Of a stretch of DNA of 64,000 nt, positions 3,294 to 58,700 are shown piece after piece. Position numbers and translations under genes: made by a program. The notes below the pieces were generated by a model. That model had not been told where the DNA came from. It ran no database searches and saw only the letters and a list, made by a program, of their open reading frames with translations. The stretch is taken from NCBI GenBank assembly GCA_018402525.1, contig JAGYIR010000010.1, positions 310,001 through 374,000 of the forward strand. The letters are read 5' to 3'. This stretch comes from Crocinitomicaceae bacterium. GTDB lineage: Bacteria > Bacteroidota > Bacteroidia > Flavobacteriales_D > Crocinitomicaceae. Numbering within the stretch: position 1 is the stretch's first letter; every line of letters starts with the position of its first letter.

Positions 3294-3828
3294 TGTTATT
3301 ACCCCTAATGCGCATCCAACCAATTATTCCCGCAAAAACAGTGGTTACAACCATAAAAATCCCTATATTTTAATAGTTTTTATGGGTCTAACCCTATAAT
3401 CGAATGTTTCAATCCCCCCAAAATCAATTCATTTAACCATGAATATTTAAAATTTGGTTTAAATTTTTCATGGAAATTTTACAAGCAGTTTGTATTTGTA
3501 AAGCGTTATAATTAACAATTATCTCCTATAAAATAAGCGGCATTGAAGATTCCTTTTGGTAAATTTCCTCGATAGAATTCCAAGCATTGTATTGTGGTTT
3601 ATAGCACATAAAATTAAAGACACGCGCTCAACTAAAATTTATTAACGTATTGTTAATCAATATATTACATGAAAAATTGGGACGTTCAGGTATGCATAAT
3701 TCTAGCTATTCCATAGCACAAGTACGGGTAGTGTATAGATAGAGTATGGATAGTGTATGAAAATAGAATGATACCACAACGCTTTTCTATTTTTTTAGGA
3801 GTGCAAGAGTTATTCTCGACTTTAATCC
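3294..3828. other. AT-rich intergenic spacer with hairpins, no gene seen
   Basis: No credible coding frame was found in these 535 bp between the convergent methyltransferase and polA genes. The spacer holds a 25-bp copy of the polA end (3303-3327), a 9-bp inverted repeat CCATAAAAA/TTTTTATGG (3351-3359 and 3377-3385), and a longer imperfect AT hairpin bounded by CCATGA and TCATGG (3437-3473). Near 3727-3758 there are imperfect copies of a GTATGGATAGT-like word. Either hairpin could end transcription from one side, but neither has a clean T-tract. Confidence 0.6.
3303..3327. repeat. 25-bp direct copy of the polA 3' end
   Basis: The 25 bases from 3303 (core TGCGCATCCAACCAATTAT) are identical to 3827-3851, which encode the last residues and stop codon of polA on the minus strand (NWLDAH-stop). 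The two copies are 524 bp apart in direct orientation. Homology decays just beyond both ends. It looks like a target-site or attachment-site duplication, or the leftover of an old polA end. Confidence 0.8.
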
Positions 3829-6633
3829 CTAATGCGCATCCAACCAATTATCCGCCACCTCAATTTCTACTTCCATCGGGACGGCTAGTTGAACCGCAGC
3901 TTCCATTTCTTTCTGAACAAGTGCTTTCATCTGGTCGAGTTCACTTTCGTGGACATCAAACACCAATTCATCATGCACTTGAAGCAACAATTTGGATTTC
4001 ACATTCGCTTTAACCATCGCATTATGGACGCGAATCATTGCCAATTTAATGACATCGGCAGCAGAACCCTGAATAGGCGCGTTGACAGCATTTCGCTCGG
4101 CAAATCCACGTACCACTGCATTCGCTGAGTTGATGTCCGCTAAATAACGTCGGCGCTGCATGATCGTTTCCACGTAACCTTTTTCACGTGCACTTGCAAT
4201 CGCACCGTCCATGTAACCTTTAATCGTTGGGTACTGCTCAAAATAACTGTCGATGATTTGTTTCGCTTCGGTGCGTGAAATATTGAGGTTTTGTGCCAAT
4301 CCAAAGGCCGATTGTCCGTAAATGATTCCAAAATTGACCGCTTTTGCTGAACTTCGTTGGTCGCGTGTGACTTCTTCCAACGGTACATTAAACACCTTCG
4401 ATGCGGTAGCTGCGTGAATGTCCTGACCATTTCTGAAAGCTTCAATCATGTTTTTATCTTCACTCAACGCTGCAATGATGCGCAATTCAATCTGAGAGTA
4501 ATCTGCCGCCATTAACTTAAAGTCTTTTCCGCGGGAAATAAATGCGCGTCGAATTTCTCGTCCTTTTTCAGAACGGATAGGAATGTTTTGAAGGTTGGGA
4601 TTGTTTGAACTCAATCGTCCCGTAGCTGCAACTGCCTGCATGTAATTCGTGTGAATGCGCCCATCAACAGGGTCCATCATCGTGGGAAGCGGATCGACAT
4701 ACGTATTTTTCAATTTACGCAATTGGCGGTAATCCAAAATCAATTCAATAATGGGGTGGGCATGCTTCAATTTCTGAAGGACATCTTCTCCTGTGGCGTA
4801 CTGTCCCGTTTTGGTTTTCTTCGCCTTAGAAATGATTTGCAGATGATCAAAAAGTACTTCTCCCAGTTGTTTCGGAGAATCAATGTTGAAGTCCATTCCC
4901 GCTTCTTTCTTTATGGCGGTCTCCAACTCGTCGAGTGTTTTCCCTAATTCTTCCGAATAGACTTTCAATCCTTCCGCATCGATGGTGATACCCTCTTGTT
5001 CCATGCTTTTCAGCACTTCAACCAGTGGCATTTCCATGTTGTAGAACAATTCTTTCAAATGCTCTTTTTGTACCTCTGGTTCGAAGATTTGCTTCAGTTG
5101 AAAGGTGATATCGGCATCTTCACAAGCATAATCGTACACCTCTTCAGGTGTCAATTCCGACATGTTTTTCTGGTTCTTTCCTTTTTTACCAAGCAATTCA
5201 GTAATTGATACGGGTTGGTAATTCAAGTAAAATTCAGAAAGGAAATCCATGCTGTGTTTTGAATCCGCGTTGATCAAATAATGCGCAATCATGGTATCAA
5301 ACGTGGGAGCTGCGACCTGCACACCGTAACGGTTGATGACCTTTATGTCGAACTTAATGTTGTGCGCAATTTTTTCAATGGTAGTCGATTCAAAAAACGG
5401 ACGAAACTCCTCTACAATCTTTTTGGCGTCTTCAAAATTGGCTGGCGTCGCAACGTAAAATGCTTCTCTCGCTTTGTACGAGAAAGACATTCCAACCAAA
5501 TTGGCGTGTAACGGTTCAATGTTATCCGTTTCTGTATCGAAGCAAACCGAGGATTGTTTAAGTAATAATTCCAATAATTCTTTGCGCTCTTCAGGTCGTG
5601 TAATGAGATGATAACTCGGTTTTTCCGTCGCCAATGTTTTGTAGGTCGATGTCTCACTCGGAGTTTGTTCTTCCACCAAACTTTGCGTGCTGAACAAGTC
5701 CATTTGTGCGCCTGGTTCGCTGGTTTGTTGTCCCACCACAATTTCTTCTCCCAACACACGTCGTGCAAGGTTGCGAAATTCCAGTTCCGTAAAAATGGCA
5801 CGAATTTTTTCTGGATCGCTGTCACACATCAACAGGTTTTCTTCGTCCAAATCGATGTCAATGTCTAAAATAATCGTAGCAAGTGATTTCGACATCAATC
5901 CTTGTTCTGCGAATGTTTCAATGTTTTCCCTTTGTTTTCCTTTCAACTCGTGTGCGTTGGCGATAATGCCTTCTACTGAACCGTAGTCTTTCAATAATTT
6001 AGAAGCTGTTTTGGGTCCAATACCTGGAATTCCCGGAATATTATCTGCTGCATCGCCTTGTAAACCAAGGACATCAATCACTTGAGAAACATTATCGATG
6101 TCAAATTTCTCACAAACTTCTTTCACGCCCCACACTTCAGCAGGTCCACCACCACGTCCCGGTCGGAACATAAAAATATTTTCACTGACCAACTGACCGA
6201 AATCTTTGTCAGGAGTCATCATATAGGTTTTGTATCCCTTTTGCTCTGCTTTTTTCGCCAAGGTTCCGATTACGTCATCTGCTTCAAATCCGTTGACTTG
6301 AATCATCGGCACATTAAATGCACGCACAATTTCCTTGATGGGTTCAATCATCGTTGTAATTCCTTCTGGCGTCTCTTCACGGTGCGCTTTGTATGCTTCA
6401 AATTCTTCTCGTCTTGAAACCGAACCGCCTGGAGGATCAAACACGACCGCCAAATGCGTCGGTTTTTCATTCTTGATGACATCGATCAATGCGTTTGTAA
6501 AACCAAACGCTGCAGAGGTATTCAACCCTTGCGAATTCACCCGTGGATTTTTAGCGAAGGCAAAGTAAGCACGGAAAATAAGTGCATACGCATCAATGAG
6601 AAATAGTTTTTTATCGTGTTCAGGCGAAATCAT
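3829..6633 (-). CDS. polA: DNA polymerase I
   Basis: This 934-residue enzyme fills gaps and removes RNA primers. It shows all three modules: an N-terminal 5'-3' exonuclease (starting KKLFLIDAYALIFRAYFAF, with NGFEADDVIGTLAKKAE and GIPGIGPKTASKLL), a 3'-5' proofreading domain with the acidic motif FDTETDN (D366 and E368), and the polymerase core with motif A DYSQIELR (D711), motif B KAVNFGIIYG and motif C VHDELVFDV (D888). The proofreading acidic pair is retained, unlike in Taq. An in-frame ATG exists 57 codons upstream at 6804, but that extension is unrelated to the family and crosses a repeat, so the start at 6633 (MISPEHDKK) is preferred. Confidence 0.97.
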   Translation of the reverse strand: MISPEHDKKLFLIDAYALIFRAYFAFAKNPRVNSQGLNTSAAFGFTNALIDVIKNEKPTHLAVVFDPPGGSVSRREEFEAYKAHREETPEGITTMIEPIKEIVRAFNVPMIQVNGFEADDVIGTLAKKAEQKGYKTYMMTPDKDFGQLVSENIFMFRPGRGGGPAEVWGVKEVCEKFDIDNVSQVIDVLGLQGDAADNIPGIPGIGPKTASKLLKDYGSVEGIIANAHELKGKQRENIETFAEQGLMSKSLATIILDIDIDLDEENLLMCDSDPEKIRAIFTELEFRNLARRVLGEEIVVGQQTSEPGAQMDLFSTQSLVEEQTPSETSTYKTLATEKPSYHLITRPEERKELLELLLKQSSVCFDTETDNIEPLHANLVGMSFSYKAREAFYVATPANFEDAKKIVEEFRPFFESTTIEKIAHNIKFDIKVINRYGVQVAAPTFDTMIAHYLINADSKHSMDFLSEFYLNYQPVSITELLGKKGKNQKNMSELTPEEVYDYACEDADITFQLKQIFEPEVQKEHLKELFYNMEMPLVEVLKSMEQEGITIDAEGLKVYSEELGKTLDELETAIKKEAGMDFNIDSPKQLGEVLFDHLQIISKAKKTKTGQYATGEDVLQKLKHAHPIIELILDYRQLRKLKNTYVDPLPTMMDPVDGRIHTNYMQAVAATGRLSSNNPNLQNIPIRSEKGREIRRAFISRGKDFKLMAADYSQIELRIIAALSEDKNMIEAFRNGQDIHAATASKVFNVPLEEVTRDQRSSAKAVNFGIIYGQSAFGLAQNLNISRTEAKQIIDSYFEQYPTIKGYMDGAIASAREKGYVETIMQRRRYLADINSANAVVRGFAERNAVNAPIQGSAADVIKLAMIRVHNAMVKANVKSKLLLQVHDELVFDVHESELDQMKALVQKEMEAAVQLAVPMEVEIEVADNWLDAH

Positions 6634-16930: not shown

Positions 16931-17012
16931 TACCCCGTATTGACTGCTGGAGTCTACATATTTTATCAATATTTCGTTAAAATTTAACGCAAATATTCAT
17001 AGATCATTCAAG

Positions 17013-17135
17013 TCCTCCCCCTGCACCCCCTCCAAAGGGAGAGACGAGTCGAAATTGATCTTTCTTTAATTTTCTATGAGTTATTGTCAAAATGACTGAA
17101 AAGATTCCCCCTTTGGAGGGGGTGCAGGGGGAGGA
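17013..17135. repeat. GC-rich long inverted repeat (MITE/REP-like)
   Basis: The left arm TCCTCCCCCTGCACCCCC continuing to 17039 is perfectly complementary over 27 bp to 17109-17135 (CCCTTTGGAGGGGGTGCA and onward). The arms flank a 69-bp AT-rich centre with no gene. The GC-rich arms stand out sharply from the surroundings. The right-arm ends (TTCCCCCTTTGGAGG and GGGGGAGGA) recur inside ileS at 56432-56493, so this belongs to a dispersed repeat family. Confidence 0.85.
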
Positions 17136-17294
17136 TCTGTATTAAACAAAAACCATCATTGACAGGATTTCTATCCCAAAGGAAAATTATATTTCAAAGT
17201 TCCTTTTGCAATCGGGTAAAAAATGATGACGTCCTATCTTGAATTTAATCGAATAATAATGCAAAAAAACTATCTTTAAGCCAAGTTTTCAAAA

Positions 17295-38000: not shown

Positions 38001-41000
38001 ACTGGTGTGTGGACGTTGACAATTACGGACGGTTATCCCGCGGCAGATAACGGAGTTTTGAACGATTGGAGCTTGGAGCTGTGTGTTGACCCCGTTTGTG
38101 TTGACCCAACGCTTCCAACCCTTTCAGGAACAACTACGATTTGTGAGGGAGGTAATACGACCTTAAGTGTAAGTGCAGGAAACTTAAACGATGCAACAAA
38201 CTGGCAATGGTACACTGGATCATGCGGTGGAACATCGGTTGGGTCAGGAGCAAGTTTATTGGTAAATCCAGTAACAACGACTACCTACTTTGTAAGAGGA
38301 GAAGGTGGTTGTGTAGCACCAGGAACATGCGCAACAATTACAGTAACCGTTCAAACGGTTGACAATACGGTTACTAATAACGGAACGTCGTTGATGGCGA
38401 ATCAAGGTGGCGCGAGCTACCAATGGGTTGACTGCGACAATGGCAATGCACCAATTGGCGGAGCAACGGGACAAACATTTGTTCCATCGGTTACAGGTAA
38501 TTACGCTGTGGAAGTGACAGTTGGTGGATGTACAGAAACATCAGGATGTGAGCTTATTACAGTTTGCGTTGACCCAACGCTTCCAACCCTTTCAGGAACG
38601 ACAACTATTTGTGAGGGAGGTAATACGACCTTAAGCGTAAGTGCAGGAAACTTAAACGATGCAACAAACTGGCAATGGTACACTGGATCATGCGGTGGAA
38701 CATCGGTTGGGTCAGGAGCAAGTTTATTGGTAAATCCAGTAACAACGACTACCTACTTTGTAAGAGGAGAAGGTGGTTGTGTAGCACCAGGAACATGCGC
38801 AACAATTACAGTAACCGTTCAAACGGTTGACAATACGGTTACTAATAACGGAACGTCGTTGATGGCGAATCAAGGTGGCGCGAGCTACCAATGGGTTGAC
38901 TGCGACAATGGCAATGCACCAATTGGCGGAGCAACGGGACAAACATTTGTTCCATCTGTTACAGGTAATTACGCTGTGGAAGTGACAGTTGGTGGATGTA
39001 CAGAAACATCAGGATGTGAGCTTATTACAGTTTGCGTTGACCCAACGCTTCCAACCCTTTCAGGAACGACAACTATTTGTGAGGGAGGTAATACGACCTT
39101 AAGCGTAAGTGCAGGAAACTTAAACGATGCAACAAACTGGCAATGGTACACTGGATCATGCGGTGGAACATCGGTTGGGTCAGGAGCAAGTTTATTGGTA
39201 AATCCAGTAACAACGACTACCTACTTTGTAAGAGGAGAAGGTGGTTGTGTAGCACCAGGAACATGCGCAACAATTACAGTAACCGTTCAAACGGTTGACA
39301 ATACGGTTACTAATAACGGAACGTCGTTGATGGCGAATCAAGGTGGCGCGAGCTACCAATGGGTTGACTGCGACAATGGCAATGCACCAATTGGCGGAGC
39401 AACGGGACAAACATTTGTTCCATCGGTTACAGGTAATTACGCTGTGGAAGTGACAGTTGGTGGATGTACAGAAACATCAGGATGTGAGCTTATTACAGTT
39501 TGCGTTGACCCAACGCTTCCAACCCTTTCAGGAACGACAACTATTTGTGAGGGAGGTAATACGACCTTAAGCGTAAGTGCAGGAAACTTAAACGATGCAA
39601 CAAACTGGCAATGGTACACTGGATCATGCGGTGGAACATCGGTTGGGTCAGGAGCAAGTTTATTGGTAAATCCAGTAACAACGACTACCTACTTTGTAAG
39701 AGGAGAAGGTGGTTGTGTAGCACCAGGAACATGCGCAACAATTACAGTAACCGTTCAAACGGTTGACAATACGGTTACTAATAACGGAACGTCGTTGATG
39801 GCGAATCAAGGTGGCGCGAGCTACCAATGGGTTGACTGCGACAATGGCAATGCACCAATTGGCGGAGCAACGGGACAAACATTTGTTCCATCGGTTACAG
39901 GTAACTATGCTGTGGAAGTGACAGTTGGTGGATGTACAGAAACATCAGGATGTGAATCAATTACGGTGGTAGGATGCAACAATCCAGACGTTCCAACGCT
40001 TTCAGGAACAACTACGATTTGTGAGGGAGGTAATACGACCTTAAGTGTAAGTGCAGGAAACTTAAACGATGCAACAAACTGGCAATGGTACACTGGATCA
40101 TGCGGTGGAACATCGGTTGGGTCAGGAGCAAGTTTATTGGTAAATCCAGTAACAACGACTACCTACTTTGTAAGAGGAGAAGGTGGTTGTGTAGCACCAG
40201 GAACATGCGCAACAATTACAGTAACCGTTCAAACGGTTGACAATACGGTTACCAATAACGGAACGGCGTTGATGGCGAACCAAGGTGGCGCGAGCTACCA
40301 ATGGGTTGACTGCGACAATGGCAATGCACCAATTGGCGGAGCAACGGGACAAACATTTGTTCCATCTGTTACAGGTAATTACGCTGTGGAAGTAACAGTT
40401 GGTGGATGTACAGAAACATCAGGATGTGAATCAATTACGGTTGTAGGATGCAATAATCCAGATGTTCCGGCAATTGCTGGAACCCTAACCATTTGTGCGG
40501 GAGACAATATCATTTTATCTGTAGGTGCAAGTAATTTAAATGATGCAACAAGCTGGGAATGGTACACTGGTTCTTGTGGAGGAACATCTGTGGGAAGTGG
40601 AGCAAGTTTAATGGTAAATCCAGTAACAACGACTACCTACTTTGTAAGAGGAGAAGGTGGTTGTGTAGCACCAGGAACATGCGCAACAATTACAGTAACC
40701 GTTCAAACGGTTGACAATACGGTTACCAATAACGGAACGTCGTTGATGGCGAACCAAGGTGGCGCGAGCTACCAATGGGTTGACTGCGACAATGGCAATG
40801 CACCAATTGGCGGAGCAACGGGACAAACATTTGTTCCATCTGTTACAGGTAATTACGCTGTGGAAGTAACAGTTGGTGGATGTACAGAAACATCAGGATG
40901 TGAATCAATTACGGTTGTAGGATGCAATAATCCAGATGTTCCGGCAATTGCTGGAACCCTAACCATTTGTGCGGGAGACAATATCATTTTATCTGTAGGT

Positions 41001-41645
41001 GCAAGTAATTTAAATGATGCAACAAGCTGGGAATGGTACACTGGTTCTTGTGGAGGAACATCTGTGGGAAGTGGAGCAAGTTTAATGGTAAGTCCAACTG
41101 TCACAACTACCTACTTTGTTAGAGGAGAGGGTGGTTGTGTGATACCTGGCGCTTGTGCGTCAATTACACTAGCAGTTCAGACAGTTGATGCCTCGGTTAC
41201 TAACAACGGTACATCTTTAATGGCGAATCAAGGGGGAGCAAGCTACCAATGGGTTGATTGCGGTGATGGGTTTGCACCAATTTTTGCTGAGACAGGACAA
41301 ACGTATGTACCATCGACTACCGGAAATTATGCGGTGGAAGTCACTTTGAACGGTTGTACTGAAACATCAAGCTGTCAACTAGTAGATTTTTCAGGTCTTG
41401 ATGATTTAGGTCCTGGTGTACTTATTATTTACCCAAACCCAACAGAAGGAATTGTGTATGTAGAATGGACTGAGTCGATTAGTAAAATTCAAGTGATGGA
41501 TGCACGAGGTCGACTACTTGATGTTGTTGAAAACCCAATGGGTAATCTCTACACGCTTAATTTTACAGATTACAGCAGTGGAGTTTATTTCATTCAAATC
41601 GAGAACACTTTAGGCACTAGTGTCTACGATGTAATGAAACAATAA
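35070..41645 (+). CDS. giant T9SS reprolysin-like metalloprotease with tandem Ig-like repeats
   Basis: The protein has about 2191 residues. The ATG at 35070 gives a good signal peptide (KLLSMGLMCVVICAQFLSYS); an upstream TTG frame is less likely. A zinc motif HEMGHQFGANH (H347, H351 and H357) with later NSDDHFHGVS places it in the reprolysin-like M12B group. It is followed by Ig/cadherin-like and Fn3-like domains (TTYYWRVRAV), then a P/Homo B domain (about 850-1010, with VSHVWVGDLSATL and GVWTLTITDGYPAADNGVL). Seven repeats of 156-158 residues follow, then a T9SS type A sorting domain (IIYPNPTEGIVYVEW to SVYDVMKQ). It is probably a cell-surface or released protease with a long stalk-like repeat region. 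Confidence 0.9.
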   Translation: MKMNKLLSMGLMCVVICAQFLSYSQNIKSINFSKTELKKEEAASLGTPQIQANEYRVFQMDIEALKNQLDGIMHRENESVGFIAQFNLPHPDGSIHTYNAKENSTMHAQLAASFPEIRSYDASGVDNGAFVKWDITPHGFHAMIMQDGKSTIYIDPLIKGNSDYYIVYEKSSFITNKTKDCLFDSAVETLENKSVPTTGIVKMFGTCELRTYRLAISATGEYTIFHGGTVPLALAAQVTTMNRVNGVYERDMAITMVIIPNNNLIIYTNPGSDPFANGTPGTMINQNQTNTDAVIGNGNYDIGHVFGTNSGGLAGLGVVCNNANKARGVTGSAAPIGDPFDIDYVAHEMGHQFGANHTQNNNCNRNGATAMEPGSASTIMGYAGICVPNVQNNSDDHFHGVSLGEISIEILSAGHTCEVLTPLANSAPVLVSTNGNVTVPANTPFALTAIATDADGDPMTYNWEQMNNNVSTQPPVATSTGGPNFRSNPSSTSPTRYFPNLIDLAAGGPFTWEVIPSVSRTMNFRVTIRDNAAGGGCNDHDDVTLTTHAASGPFVVTYPSATGIVWAGATQETVTWDVANTNNAPVSCSNVNILLSTDGGLTYPTVLATNVPNNGSSLITVPNVATTTARVMVISENGTFFDISNNNFEITMATFDYTLDVTNPVVSVCQPNLATFDIEIGQIGGYNDAVNLSVSGVPAGATSNFTVNPVTPIGTSQLIISNTAAAAPGSYVLTVTANSTSGMKQTNVTLNISAGSPAAIAQISPANGATAVNIPVDFTWAASPEIGVTYEIDIATDAGFSSIVDQSTGLGTPDYSSGVFLSNTTYYWRVRAVTGCGQSPWSATFSFTTSSCITTASLDVGQVINNGSPVVTSTITIPDAGTINDVNISLLDVSHVWVGDLSATLTSPTGTVVQLFDGPGIPASQYGCAGDNILASFDDGAASTAADFENMCNGTPPAISGDFQSIDPLADFIGESITGVWTLTITDGYPAADNGVLNDWSLELCVDPVCVDPTLPTLSGTTTICEGGNTTLSVSAGNLNDATNWQWYTGSCGGTSVGSGASLLVNPVTTTTYFVRGEGGCVAPGTCATITVTVQTVDNTVTNNGTSLMANQGGASYQWVDCDNGNAPIGGATGQTFVPSVTGNYAVEVTVGGCTETSGCELITVCVDPTLPTLSGTTTICEGGNTTLSVSAGNLNDATNWQWYTGSCGGTSVGSGASLLVNPVTTTTYFVRGEGGCVAPGTCATITVTVQTVDNTVTNNGTSLMANQGGASYQWVDCDNGNAPIGGATGQTFVPSVTGNYAVEVTVGGCTETSGCELITVCVDPTLPTLSGTTTICEGGNTTLSVSAGNLNDATNWQWYTGSCGGTSVGSGASLLVNPVTTTTYFVRGEGGCVAPGTCATITVTVQTVDNTVTNNGTSLMANQGGASYQWVDCDNGNAPIGGATGQTFVPSVTGNYAVEVTVGGCTETSGCELITVCVDPTLPTLSGTTTICEGGNTTLSVSAGNLNDATNWQWYTGSCGGTSVGSGASLLVNPVTTTTYFVRGEGGCVAPGTCATITVTVQTVDNTVTNNGTSLMANQGGASYQWVDCDNGNAPIGGATGQTFVPSVTGNYAVEVTVGGCTETSGCESITVVGCNNPDVPTLSGTTTICEGGNTTLSVSAGNLNDATNWQWYTGSCGGTSVGSGASLLVNPVTTTTYFVRGEGGCVAPGTCATITVTVQTVDNTVTNNGTALMANQGGASYQWVDCDNGNAPIGGATGQTFVPSVTGNYAVEVTVGGCTETSGCESITVVGCNNPDVPAIAGTLTICAGDNIILSVGASNLNDATSWEWYTGSCGGTSVGSGASLMVNPVTTTTYFVRGEGGCVAPGTCATITVTVQTVDNTVTNNGTSLMANQGGASYQWVDCDNGNAPIGGATGQTFVPSVTGNYAVEVTVGGCTETSGCESITVVGCNNPDVPAIAGTLTICAGDNIILSVGASNLNDATSWEWYTGSCGGTSVGSGASLMVSPTVTTTYFVRGEGGCVIPGACASITLAVQTVDASVTNNGTSLMANQGGASYQWVDCGDGFAPIFAETGQTYVPSTTGNYAVEVTLNGCTETSSCQLVDFSGLDDLGPGVLIIYPNPTEGIVYVEWTESISKIQVMDARGRLLDVVENPMGNLYTLNFTDYSSGVYFIQIENTLGTSVYDVMKQ
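38097..41394 (+). repeat. seven tandem 468/474-bp coding repeats
   Basis: Units start at 38097, 38565, 39033, 39501, 39975, 40449 and 40923; unit lengths are 468 bp for the first three and 474 bp for units four to six. Units 1-4 differ by only a few bases. Units 5-7 gain a two-codon insert in the linker (VGCNNPDVP in place of CVDPTLP). Unit 6 is mosaic: its first roughly 167 bp match unit 7, and from about 40616 on it matches unit 5. Each encodes two Ig-like halves (PTLSGTTTICEGGNTTLSV and DNTVTNNGTSLMANQGGASY) with conserved cysteines. Confidence 0.92.
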
Positions 41646-55769: not shown

Positions 55770-58700
55770 ATGAGCAAAACTTATCCAACGTACCAAGGTT
55801 TGAACTTACCAGATGTTGCCACGCGTGTGTTAAATAACTGGGAGCAGAACCATATCTTTGAGAAATCAGTAGACACCCGCGAAGGAAAGGAGCCATTTAT
55901 TTTCTTTGAAGGACCGCCGTCTGCGAATGGTTTACCTGGGATTCACCATGCGATGGGACGTTCAATCAAGGATATTTTTTGCCGCTATAAGACATTGAAG
56001 GGATATCAAGTCAAACGAAAAGCAGGATGGGATACCCACGGTTTACCAGTAGAGTTGGGCGTTGAAAAGGAACTTGGAATTACAAAGGAAGACATTGGAA
56101 CGAAAATCACGGTAGAAGATTATAACAAAGCGTGTAAACAAGCCGTGATGCGTTACACAGATATTTGGAACGATTTGACCCGAAAAATGGGGTACTGGGT
56201 AGATATGGGAGATCCATACATTACCTATGAATCGAAGTACATGGAAACGGTGTGGTGGTTGTTAGGTCAATTGTACGAAAAAGGATTGATGTACAAAGGA
56301 TACACCATTCAACCGTATTCACCGAAAGCTGGAACTGGATTATCAACGCATGAGTTGAACCAACCAGGTTGTTATAAAGATGTGACGGATACAACGGTCG
56401 TAGCACAATTTAGAGTTGCAGAGGGATCGGTTTCCCCCTTTGGAGGAGAAGAAGCGCTAGCTTCTGAAGACCGAAGGGATAATGGGGGGAGGACATTTGA
56501 GGAAACCTACTTCCTTGCGTGGACGACTACTCCATGGACATTACCGTCAAACACAGCACTAACCGTAGGACCGAAAATCGAATATGTGTTGGTTAGAACA
56601 TACAATCAATACACCTTTGAACCGATCAACGTTATTTTGGCAAAGAACTTAGTTGGGAAGCAATTCAACAAGCCATTTTTTGCGGTTGAAAGTGAGGATG
56701 AATTAACTAGCTACGAAGCGGGTGGTAAGGCGATTCCTTACTTTATTGCTGGAACGTGTCTTGGAAAGGAACTGGAAGGAATTCGCTATGAACAATTGTT
56801 GCCATACGCGTTACCCTACGAAAATGCCGATAAAGCTTTTCAAGTTATTTTGGGAGATTTCGTTACCACAGAAGATGGAACGGGAATCGTGCATACAGCT
56901 CCTACATTTGGTGCTGATGATGCCAAGGTTGCTGCGGATGCAGGTGTGCCTGGATTATTGGTGTTGGACGAGAAAGGAAATGCTGTTCCATTGGTCGATT
57001 TACAAGGTAAATTCACGTCACACATGGGTGAATTCGCTGGAAAATACGTGAAAAACGAATATTACAACGAAGGCGAAGCACCAGAAAAATCAGTAGATGT
57101 TGAACTTGCGATCAAATTAAAAACAGAGAACAAGGCATTTAAGGTGGAGAAATATGTCCACAGTTACCCGCATTGTTGGAGAACAGATAAACCTGTGCTT
57201 TATTACCCACTGGATTCATGGTTTGTCAGAGCGAGTGGGGCAAAAGAGCGCATGATGGAATTGAACAATACCATCAACTGGAAACCTGCTTCAACGGGAG
57301 AAGGACGCTTTGGAAAATGGTTGGAGAATGTCAACGATTGGAACTTGTCGCGTTCGCGCTACTGGGGAATTCCAATTCCGATCTGGTCAACCGTTGAGGG
57401 AGACGAGCGCTTGTGTATTTCTTCCGTCGAAATGTTGATGAAGGAATGTGACAAAGCCATCGAAGCAGGAGTGATGGATGCACATCCGTTTCCAGATTTC
57501 GTGGTTGGTGATATGTCGAAGGCCAATTACGAGAAGGTGGACTTGCATAAAAATTACATGGACAACATCACGCTGGTTTCTTCTTCGGGAAAACCGATGA
57601 AACGTGAAGCGGATTTGATCGATGTGTGGTTTGATTCAGGATCCATGCCGTATGCACAGTGGCATTATCCGTTTGAAAATAAAGAATTGATTGATGAAGG
57701 GAAGGCTTTCCCCGCAAATTTCATCGCCGAGGGTGTCGACCAAACCCGTGGATGGTTCTATACCTTGCATGCGATTGCAACCATGGTCTTTGATTCTGTG
57801 GCGTTCAAAAACGTCGTGTCGAATGGATTGGTACTAGACAAAAACGGACAGAAAATGTCCAAACGTTTAGGAAATACGGTAGATCCGTTTACAACTATAG
57901 AAAAATACGGTCCTGATGCGACGCGATGGTACATGATTACCAATGCGCAACCATGGGATAACTTGAAATTCGATTTAGACGGAATCACAGAAGTGCAGCG
58001 AAAATTCTTCGGAACGTTGTACAATACGTATTCCTTCTTTGCACTGTATGCGAACATCGATGGATTTGATTATTCTGAAGAAGATTTACCAGTAGAAAGC
58101 AGACCTGAAATCGATCGTTGGATTTTATCGCAGTTGAATTCACTCATTAAAAATGTGGATGAAGCGTATGAAACCTACGAACCAACAAAAGCGGGACGTT
58201 TGATTCAAGAATTTGTAACTGACCAGTTATCGAATTGGTACGTGCGTTTGTGCAGAAGACGTTTTTGGAAAAGCGATGACTCACAAGATAAACTTTCGGC
58301 GTATCAAACATTGTACACCTGCCTTGAAACGGTTGCCGTTTTAGGATCGCCGATTGCACCATTTTTCATGGATCAGCTGTTCCTCGATTTGAATGCAGTT
58401 TCTTCGAAACATAGCGTTCCTTCGGTTCACATCGCCGATTTTCCGCAAGCGAATGACGCGTTGATTGACTCGGAATTGGAAGCTCAAATGGACATCGCAC
58501 AGCGTGTATCTTCATTGGTACTTGGACTGAGAAAAAAGGAAAACATCCGTGTCCGTCAACCTTTGCAGAAAATTATGGTTCCTGTGCTCGACAAGAAGTT
58601 CTCAGAAAATCTGTTGCACGTAAAAGAGTTGATTCTATCAGAAGTAAACGTGAAGGAATTGGAACTGTTGGAAGAGGACAACGGAATTTTGGTAAAAAGC

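Follow-up and report, generated by a model that had tools for sequence, protein, structure and literature searches.

The window analysed here is a stretch of 64,000 nt from the genome of a Crocinitomicaceae bacterium (G000 in our genome labels), in which the gene for isoleucyl-tRNA synthetase (ileS, encoding IleRS) carries, in its own reading frame, a 62-bp block (TTCCCCCTTTGGAGG...GGGGGGAGGA) with kin between genes of the same window (Table 1). The start of the block, TCCCCCTTTGGAGG, was found at three window sites at ≤2 mismatches (17029-17042 on the minus strand, 17106-17119 and 56433-56446 on the plus strand) against a chance expectation of 0.20, and three sites were reached in none of 100 shuffles. 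The ileS ORF stays open through the block with both flanks conserved in relatives, which makes this an in-frame repeat insertion, and the copy, given its frame, should be translated. Searching Rfam at the gathering threshold gave no match in the window.

An IleRS match was present in all 99 genomes searched (own included), with the best matches among named genomes coming mostly from environmental Flavobacteriales assemblies, several Crocinitomicaceae and a few others. Our own assembly (3.16 Mb, 19 contigs, 98% complete) holds one full-length IleRS, the other listed match being a weak one within valS.

Table 1. Positions in the window of ileS, its in-frame repeat with flanks, and the intergenic repeat pair
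Feature	Coordinates	Strand	Evidence
ileS (host gene), isoleucyl-tRNA synthetase, 1148 aa	55770..59216	+	ORF; Pfam tRNA-synt_1 (E 3.6e-116), Anticodon_1, DUF5915
In-frame solitary long-subtype REP-like copy (family a), encoding residues 222-241 SPFGGEEALASEDRRDNGGR	56432..56493	+	Own-genome BLAST, aligned copies, loop comparison with relatives
5' flank: start of native loop after first hairpin strand	56415..56431	+	Relatives aligned
3' flank: native loop end leading into conserved editing-domain strand FLAWTTTPWT	56494..56526	+	Relatives aligned; strand 246-252 in model
Short-subtype intergenic REP, right arm of inverted pair	17105..17135	+	14-mer search, aligned copies
Short-subtype intergenic REP, left arm of inverted pair with 17105..17135	17013..17042	-	14-mer search, aligned copies; pair fold

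The ileS block and its repeat family

Across the own genome, the 14-mer TCCCCCTTTGGAGG was found at 53 places at ≤2 mismatches, compared with 5 for a reversed control, and a 17-mer (TCCCCCTTTGGAGGGGG) had 32 copies against none for its control. Copies of this repeat, family a, start with TTCCCCC and end with GGGGGAGGA, and they fall into two subtypes: a short one of about 31 bp (TTCCCCCTTTGGAGGGGGTGCAGGGGGAGGA) and a long one of more than 40 bp, in which a second small hairpin follows TCCCCCTTTGGAGG (GAGAAGAAGCG..AGCTTCT..). A BLAST search of the own genome with 96 nt around the ileS block found seven non-self places at E ≤ 2.7e-7, the best partner being C6:297543 (88% over 49 nt, E 4.3e-11). 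Alignment to own intergenic long copies gave 53/68, 52/67 and 46/61 identical columns, and alignment to a long copy of the relative G004 gave 55 identical of 62, such that the block, judged by these identities, is at least as close to the G004 copy as to the long copies of its own genome. By these alignments the block is a full-length long-subtype copy of the REP-like family a. The sequence-only reading had recognised a dispersed repeat from the ends of the block and had placed it in frame within an essential synthetase gene; both points are borne out, with the match extending beyond the ends to longer intergenic copies, and with the host gene encoding the sole full-length IleRS found in a nearly complete assembly.

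REPINs consist of two inverted REPs at short distance, and the own-genome pairs have this form. Among the 34 of the 53 places that were taken for pairing (33 with ≤1 mismatch, one with 2), 30 formed 15 inverted (-/+) pairs 77-122 bp apart and four were singles; the ileS copy and a copy in the leucyl-tRNA synthetase gene (leuS) are both singles, and hence not REPINs themselves. Predicted RNA folding gave -76.8 kcal/mol (z -10.3) for the window pair at 17006-17142, z -2.3 for the ileS block and z -0.1 for the leuS copy. Most copies lie between genes, with 25 of the 27 distinct own-genome sites falling outside the interior of any ORF of ≥150 aa.

Three Y1_Tnp (RAYT-like) matches occur in the own genome (L081-L083, one with a stop), and no REP was found within about 1.5 kb of any of them. 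Family a resembles REPINs and RAYT systems (PMC3116915, PMC6006769) in its inverted pairs about 100 bp apart and in the presence of Y1-type transposase genes, and differs from a REPIN/RAYT system in that no RAYT-like gene is flanked by the same REPs. PMC3733652 defines a REP as a 20-40 bp palindromic unit with many dispersed, mostly intergenic copies, and family a fits this definition apart from its long subtype, the ileS copy's own, which exceeds 40 bp. Like the GTAG/CGTC REPs of that account, family a is short, palindromic, dispersed and mostly intergenic, occurs as singles and dimers, and lies within some genes; unlike them, it carries neither tetranucleotide at one end, and it is one of three unrelated families that use one IleRS loop in Flavobacteriales, where the homologous LeuRS hairpin is occupied too. 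The same account names intragenic GTAG- or CGTC-tagged REPs in tRNA synthetases of X. oryzae, E. lithoralis and S. alaskensis (spellings of the paper), and notes that the recB genes of two Xanthomonas have REPs of different kinds at roughly one site.

A second comparison is offered by the Rickettsia palindromic elements (RPE). According to PMC3767692 these are 100-150 bp long, have relatives in Wolbachia, keep the frame when they lie in ORFs, sit in solvent-exposed parts and may stand close to elements of other groups within a single gene, with PheRS beta among the examples given. The ileS copy shares with the RPE of that text the presence of a palindromic repeat in an ORF without loss of frame and a synthetase among the hosts. 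It differs in that the own genome has a single arm of 62 bp in ileS and one of about 32 bp in leuS, and in that the other own copies examined lie outside conserved genes. Judged by host and length, family a differs from RPE, and we do not file it with them.

The editing-domain hairpin in IleRS and LeuRS

In IleRS we took as the loop what separates the ..TTVVAQF strand from the WTTTPWT motif, and read it in 87 of the 99 genomes (own included); the 12 outside this count comprise G031, which was unparsed and read separately, and 11 that were unfetched or without the loop. The repeat site is, by alignment and model, a predicted hairpin loop at the start of the CP1 editing domain that varies in length among the IleRS read. 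The best PDB relative, 8c8w (isoleucine-tRNA ligase), has just a few residues (NRDN) there, by sequence alignment alone, and an AlphaFold2 model from 30 sequences places strands at 205-216 and 246-252 with residues 226-241 at pLDDT <50, in a model that is shallow to moderate overall (mean pLDDT 70.8, pTM 0.55) and has further long stretches of low confidence. Within the window's genus, a 20-residue loop of the DGQSTPFGxDKDIHF type is the most frequent (13/30 rows). The nearest relative in the tree, G019, has a 20-residue loop without the block, and the own loop has 36. An extra block of about 20 residues had been claimed, to be checked against relatives, and this comparison upholds the extra length and corrects the rest, in that the 62 bp replace part of the native loop for a net gain of 16 residues.

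Family a was found in 8 of the 87 ileS loops at ≤3 mismatches (G000, G004, G009, G018, G020, G026, G028 and G047), and an unrelated family b (CTGAGCGGAGTCGAAGTG, either strand) was found in 5 at the same threshold (G008, G013, G023, G029 and G052), with G010 (a) and G021 (b) added at 4 mismatches. The remaining 203,241 nt of the ileS genes, about half of which were fetched in part only so that this figure is the rest of the fetched sequence, held no match at ≤4 mismatches and, at 5, nine for family a and one for family b; the loops make up 3% of the ileS sequence read, and kinship would make a simple p value too small. Dispersal of family b itself is seen, for instance, in its 53 places in G023 and 39 in G043, against 1 and 0 for controls. 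A palindrome of a third family, c (GTAGAGCCACAATGCCTTGTGGCTCTAC), lies in the ileS loop of G034; it starts with GTAG and is one of 8 in that genome (control 0), two others of which differ from the ileS copy by one base. Three unrelated repeat families have therefore used the ileS loop, and 73 of the 87 loops are without any of the three at the thresholds used (family c having been sought in 4 genomes). That the segment might be an old native loop, which had been named as a refutation of the sequence-only reading, holds for the position, a length-variable loop, and fails for the DNA there, which in the own genome and 13 relatives is repeat (eight family a, five family b, one family c).

Carriage in ileS went together with copy number elsewhere in the genome. 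Among 54 same-family genomes, family a was in ileS in 8 of 21 with at least 3 other copies versus 0 of 33, and family b in 5 of 20 versus 0 of 34 (Fisher p 0.0002 and 0.005, respectively, both with kinship ignored). A loop that merely resembles the repeat by chance has some basis in that native loops hold Pro-Phe-Gly, the codons of which overlap the REP centre. However, the match runs along the whole element at the BLAST E value given above, shuffles never reached the observed number of sites, and the rest of the 87 genes held no match at ≤4 mismatches, which refutes chance resemblance and leaves it a negligible probability.

Several other ileS loops drew attention by their sequence. In G052 (L233), a stretch resembling a long family-a repeat lies beside the family-b repeat, and G042 (L078) has an unusually long loop of 51 residues with no recognised origin. 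Palindromic-looking inserts were noted by eye in named Flavobacteriales records L092, L093, L129, L156 and L115, the first four of which resemble further REP variants. The inserts of G048 (AAATTGCAAATTGG..) and G056 (an imperfect GTAGGTG..CACCTAC palindrome, of a type outside the family-c search pattern) are candidate repeats.

Reading 30 own-genome repeat loci revealed two well inside conserved genes, ileS and leuS. The leuS copy, a short repeat of about 32 bp, is read as RFPLWRGTEGED between GAAVRF and IEVFTTRPDT, and its spacer, ACTGA, is absent from the other own-genome copies compared. Its site is the homologous hairpin opening the editing domain (Pfam domain from fragment residue 287, insert from about 300). 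A search for further in-frame copies in this genome had been proposed with the original observation, and it thus yielded one, in a frame other than that of ileS.

Of 30 leuS loci, the own one included, 28 were parsed (G012 and G033 were unparsed), and the hairpin had 18 residues in 21 of them and 19 in one. At ≤3 mismatches family a was in 3 of the 28 hairpins (G000, G018, G031) and family b in one (G026), or two at ≤4 (adding G008); a shorter family-b-like piece was seen by eye in G023. The rest of the leuS genes (79,677 nt) held no repeat match at ≤3 mismatches and three family-a matches at 4, all in ordinary coding sequence. The family-a frame was SPFGG in all eight ileS copies (as SPFEG in G028), FPLWRG in the leuS of G000 and G018, which are alike in frame, length and flank, and FPPSEG in that of G031. 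Since family-a copies occupy three forward frames across ileS and leuS, the encoded peptide is not the common element. ValRS as a further carrier was ruled out in the 30 hairpins read (own valS not among them), none of which held a repeat and which were nearly constant in length. A second variable block of leuS, at query residues about 651-718, is unmatched in many relatives, and no repeat was recognised in it.

We next consider gene-internal copies in general, from a survey of sites with fetched surroundings (144 distinct family-a sites in 10 genomes and 81 family-b sites in 6), outside which lie the ileS copies of eight genomes (G004, G009, G018, G020, G026, G047, G023 and G029). Counting a site as internal when it lay in an ORF of ≥150 aa and more than 20 aa from either end, 10 family-a and 5 family-b sites of the 225 were internal, and 6 of these 15 were at the ileS/leuS hairpin. 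The others were in hsdR (two sites, one inverted pair) and hsdM of G004, hemD of G008, three ORFs of G047, an alpha-2-macroglobulin-like protein of G029 and one possibly antisense ORF of G023, with Pfam names given for all except the G023 ORF and two of the G047 ORFs. Gene-internal copies are thus rare and not restricted to synthetases, with ileS/leuS the sole place seen to recur across species. The sequence-only reading had held that such elements can enter genes, and this proved correct for family a in ileS, leuS, hsdR and hsdM and for family b in ileS, leuS and hemD.

In G004, both type I restriction genes (L318, L332) carry family-a repeats in frame, hsdR an inverted pair and hsdM one. Three similar ORFs of G047 (L312, L319, L333) carry a family-a repeat shortly upstream of a C-terminal tail (a Por secretion tail in L333), in the same orientation in L319 and L333 and the opposite one in L312.

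Number of insertion events

The IleRS tree was built without the loop from 48 of the 99 genomes and is a quick tree with 11 of its 45 inner branches drawn open; G021 was coded as a family-b carrier (at 4 mismatches), family c of G034 as no repeat and G052 as missing. Mapping on this tree gave 9 changes for presence or absence, 8 for family a alone and 3 for family b (counts with no shuffled control). A single common ancestor for all inserts is rejected for families b and c by their unrelated sequences, so that, with three families, the minimum for ileS is three origins. Further ones are suggested by the G047 variant and by the long subtype of G000, and the leuS events are additional.

For family a itself, a single entry into ileS in the ancestor of the genus-level clade, followed by inheritance with frequent erosion or loss and by exchange that kept the survivors REP-like, is a real though doubtful possibility. 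The spacer ACAAGA is common to the ileS copies of G004, G018, G020 and G026 and nearly unique to them, this form having only two non-identical matches elsewhere in the 99 genomes at ≤2 mismatches (G055, G053). One insertion is also in keeping with the loops of G010 and G031, which by eye could be eroded copies, with the shared frame, length and flank of the G000 and G018 leuS copies, and with a G000 ileS block no farther from G004 long copies than from its own. However, the four ACAAGA carriers do not form one clade, carriers as a whole are scattered on the tree among other loops with the many changes just given, the G047 copy (from another genus) has a different spacer and the G000 copy is of a different subtype, and families b and c cannot derive from family a. 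Old inheritance also does not predict the likeness of the ACAAGA copies, which agree in 30/30 nt between G004 and G020 and in 26-28 for other pairs, when 4-fold sites in the rest of ileS are 30-42% identical among these carriers (39% for G004/G020). One inherited insert, with its arms refreshed by exchange with genomic copies and its spacer fixed by the frame, would explain both the shared spacer and the likeness, and re-insertion might also explain them. A clade test (p-AU 3.5e-29) was set aside because its group was picked after seeing the tree and includes non-carriers.

Explanations for repeats in the hairpins

The established part comprises the identity of the repeat, its frame and position, its absence in G019, the use of the same loop by other families and the occupied LeuRS hairpin of the own genome. 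The explanation that we regard as probable is that a solitary full-length family-a palindrome came into ileS, replaced part of the short native loop, stayed in frame, and survives through tolerance of length. Such palindromes would reach many sites, through transposase or recombination, and copies in essential genes would persist chiefly at points where the protein can accommodate added length. In IleRS and LeuRS the hairpin that opens the CP1 editing domain may be such a point, its tip absorbing the length, and the peptide from the ileS block is probably close to neutral. Because all three forward frames are used and residues 226-241 are of low confidence, tolerance fits better than a selected peptide, and on the same evidence the label "domesticated", in the sense of a new function, is not sustained. 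Of the own-genome variants, the two short ones tested have no stop in any of the six frames, which would help survival inside genes; for the ileS copy this holds in three of the six, the one used being its sole open forward frame.

Some observations pull against tolerance of length. Other genes with flexible loops carry few copies, and given the share of internal sites that falls to ileS and leuS, tolerance alone may not explain the concentration; the ACAAGA ileS copies are more alike than the rest of the gene, which would not be expected of a neutral old insert. The explanation as a whole is further weakened by the shallow AlphaFold2 model and by the distance of the own RAYT-like genes from any REP.

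Targeting at the DNA level, for instance through microhomology between the REP centre CCCCTTTGGAGG and the native codons for Pro-Phe-Gly (CCNTTTGG), would account for the common frame of all eight family-a copies in ileS, which overlap the native PF(G) codon place, and for an element that replaces sequence and does not merely add to it. We consider it unlikely, as PFG codons are missing from the native leuS hairpins read, and yet the homologous hairpin of leuS is occupied by family a as well as family b, with codon and frame varying; nor do families b and c carry the motif. A selected function, in which the repeat-encoded segment or an mRNA hairpin regulates or modifies the synthetase in true domestication, draws on the recurrence at the homologous editing-domain hairpin of two paralogous synthetases, the unusual DNA conservation of the ileS copies and the fold of the ileS block. 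Against this, different frames, different families and both orientations of family b would give unrelated peptides, most ileS loops read are without the three families (with family c sought in the 4 genomes), and the leuS copy has no special fold, such that selected function seems very unlikely to us.

Going further than the length tolerance that we favour, one can propose, speculatively and with rather low expectation, that unrelated mobile palindromes in Flavobacteriales share a landing pad in the CP1 entry hairpin of IleRS and LeuRS, with the gene copies kept repeat-like by exchange with, or re-insertion from, living repeats. An essential gene would then carry active repeat sequence and perhaps even act as a store of it.

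In-frame palindromes are already known, also in tRNA synthetases (REPs, RPE), and what is new here, as far as we found, is the IleRS/LeuRS pattern; within the open-access literature, leaving supplementary lists of intragenic REPs outside its scope, we found no report of homologous hairpins of two paralogous synthetases used by unrelated repeat families. The pattern offers a natural, replicated record of selfish DNA becoming part of the protein in two paralogous enzymes, both essential, and singles out one surface hairpin where insertions are directly testable. It also carries a warning: a short repeat in an essential gene can pass for a sequencing error or for a conserved protein insert.

The window holds other repeats as well. 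Seven tandem copies of a 468-474-nt unit lie at 38094-41238, the first four nearly identical and the last grading to 72-75%; degenerate short repeats of the CCCCAAAAACTAGTCACTATAAAC type occupy 292-416; and identical 25-mers stand 524 bp apart at 3303-3327 and 3827-3851.
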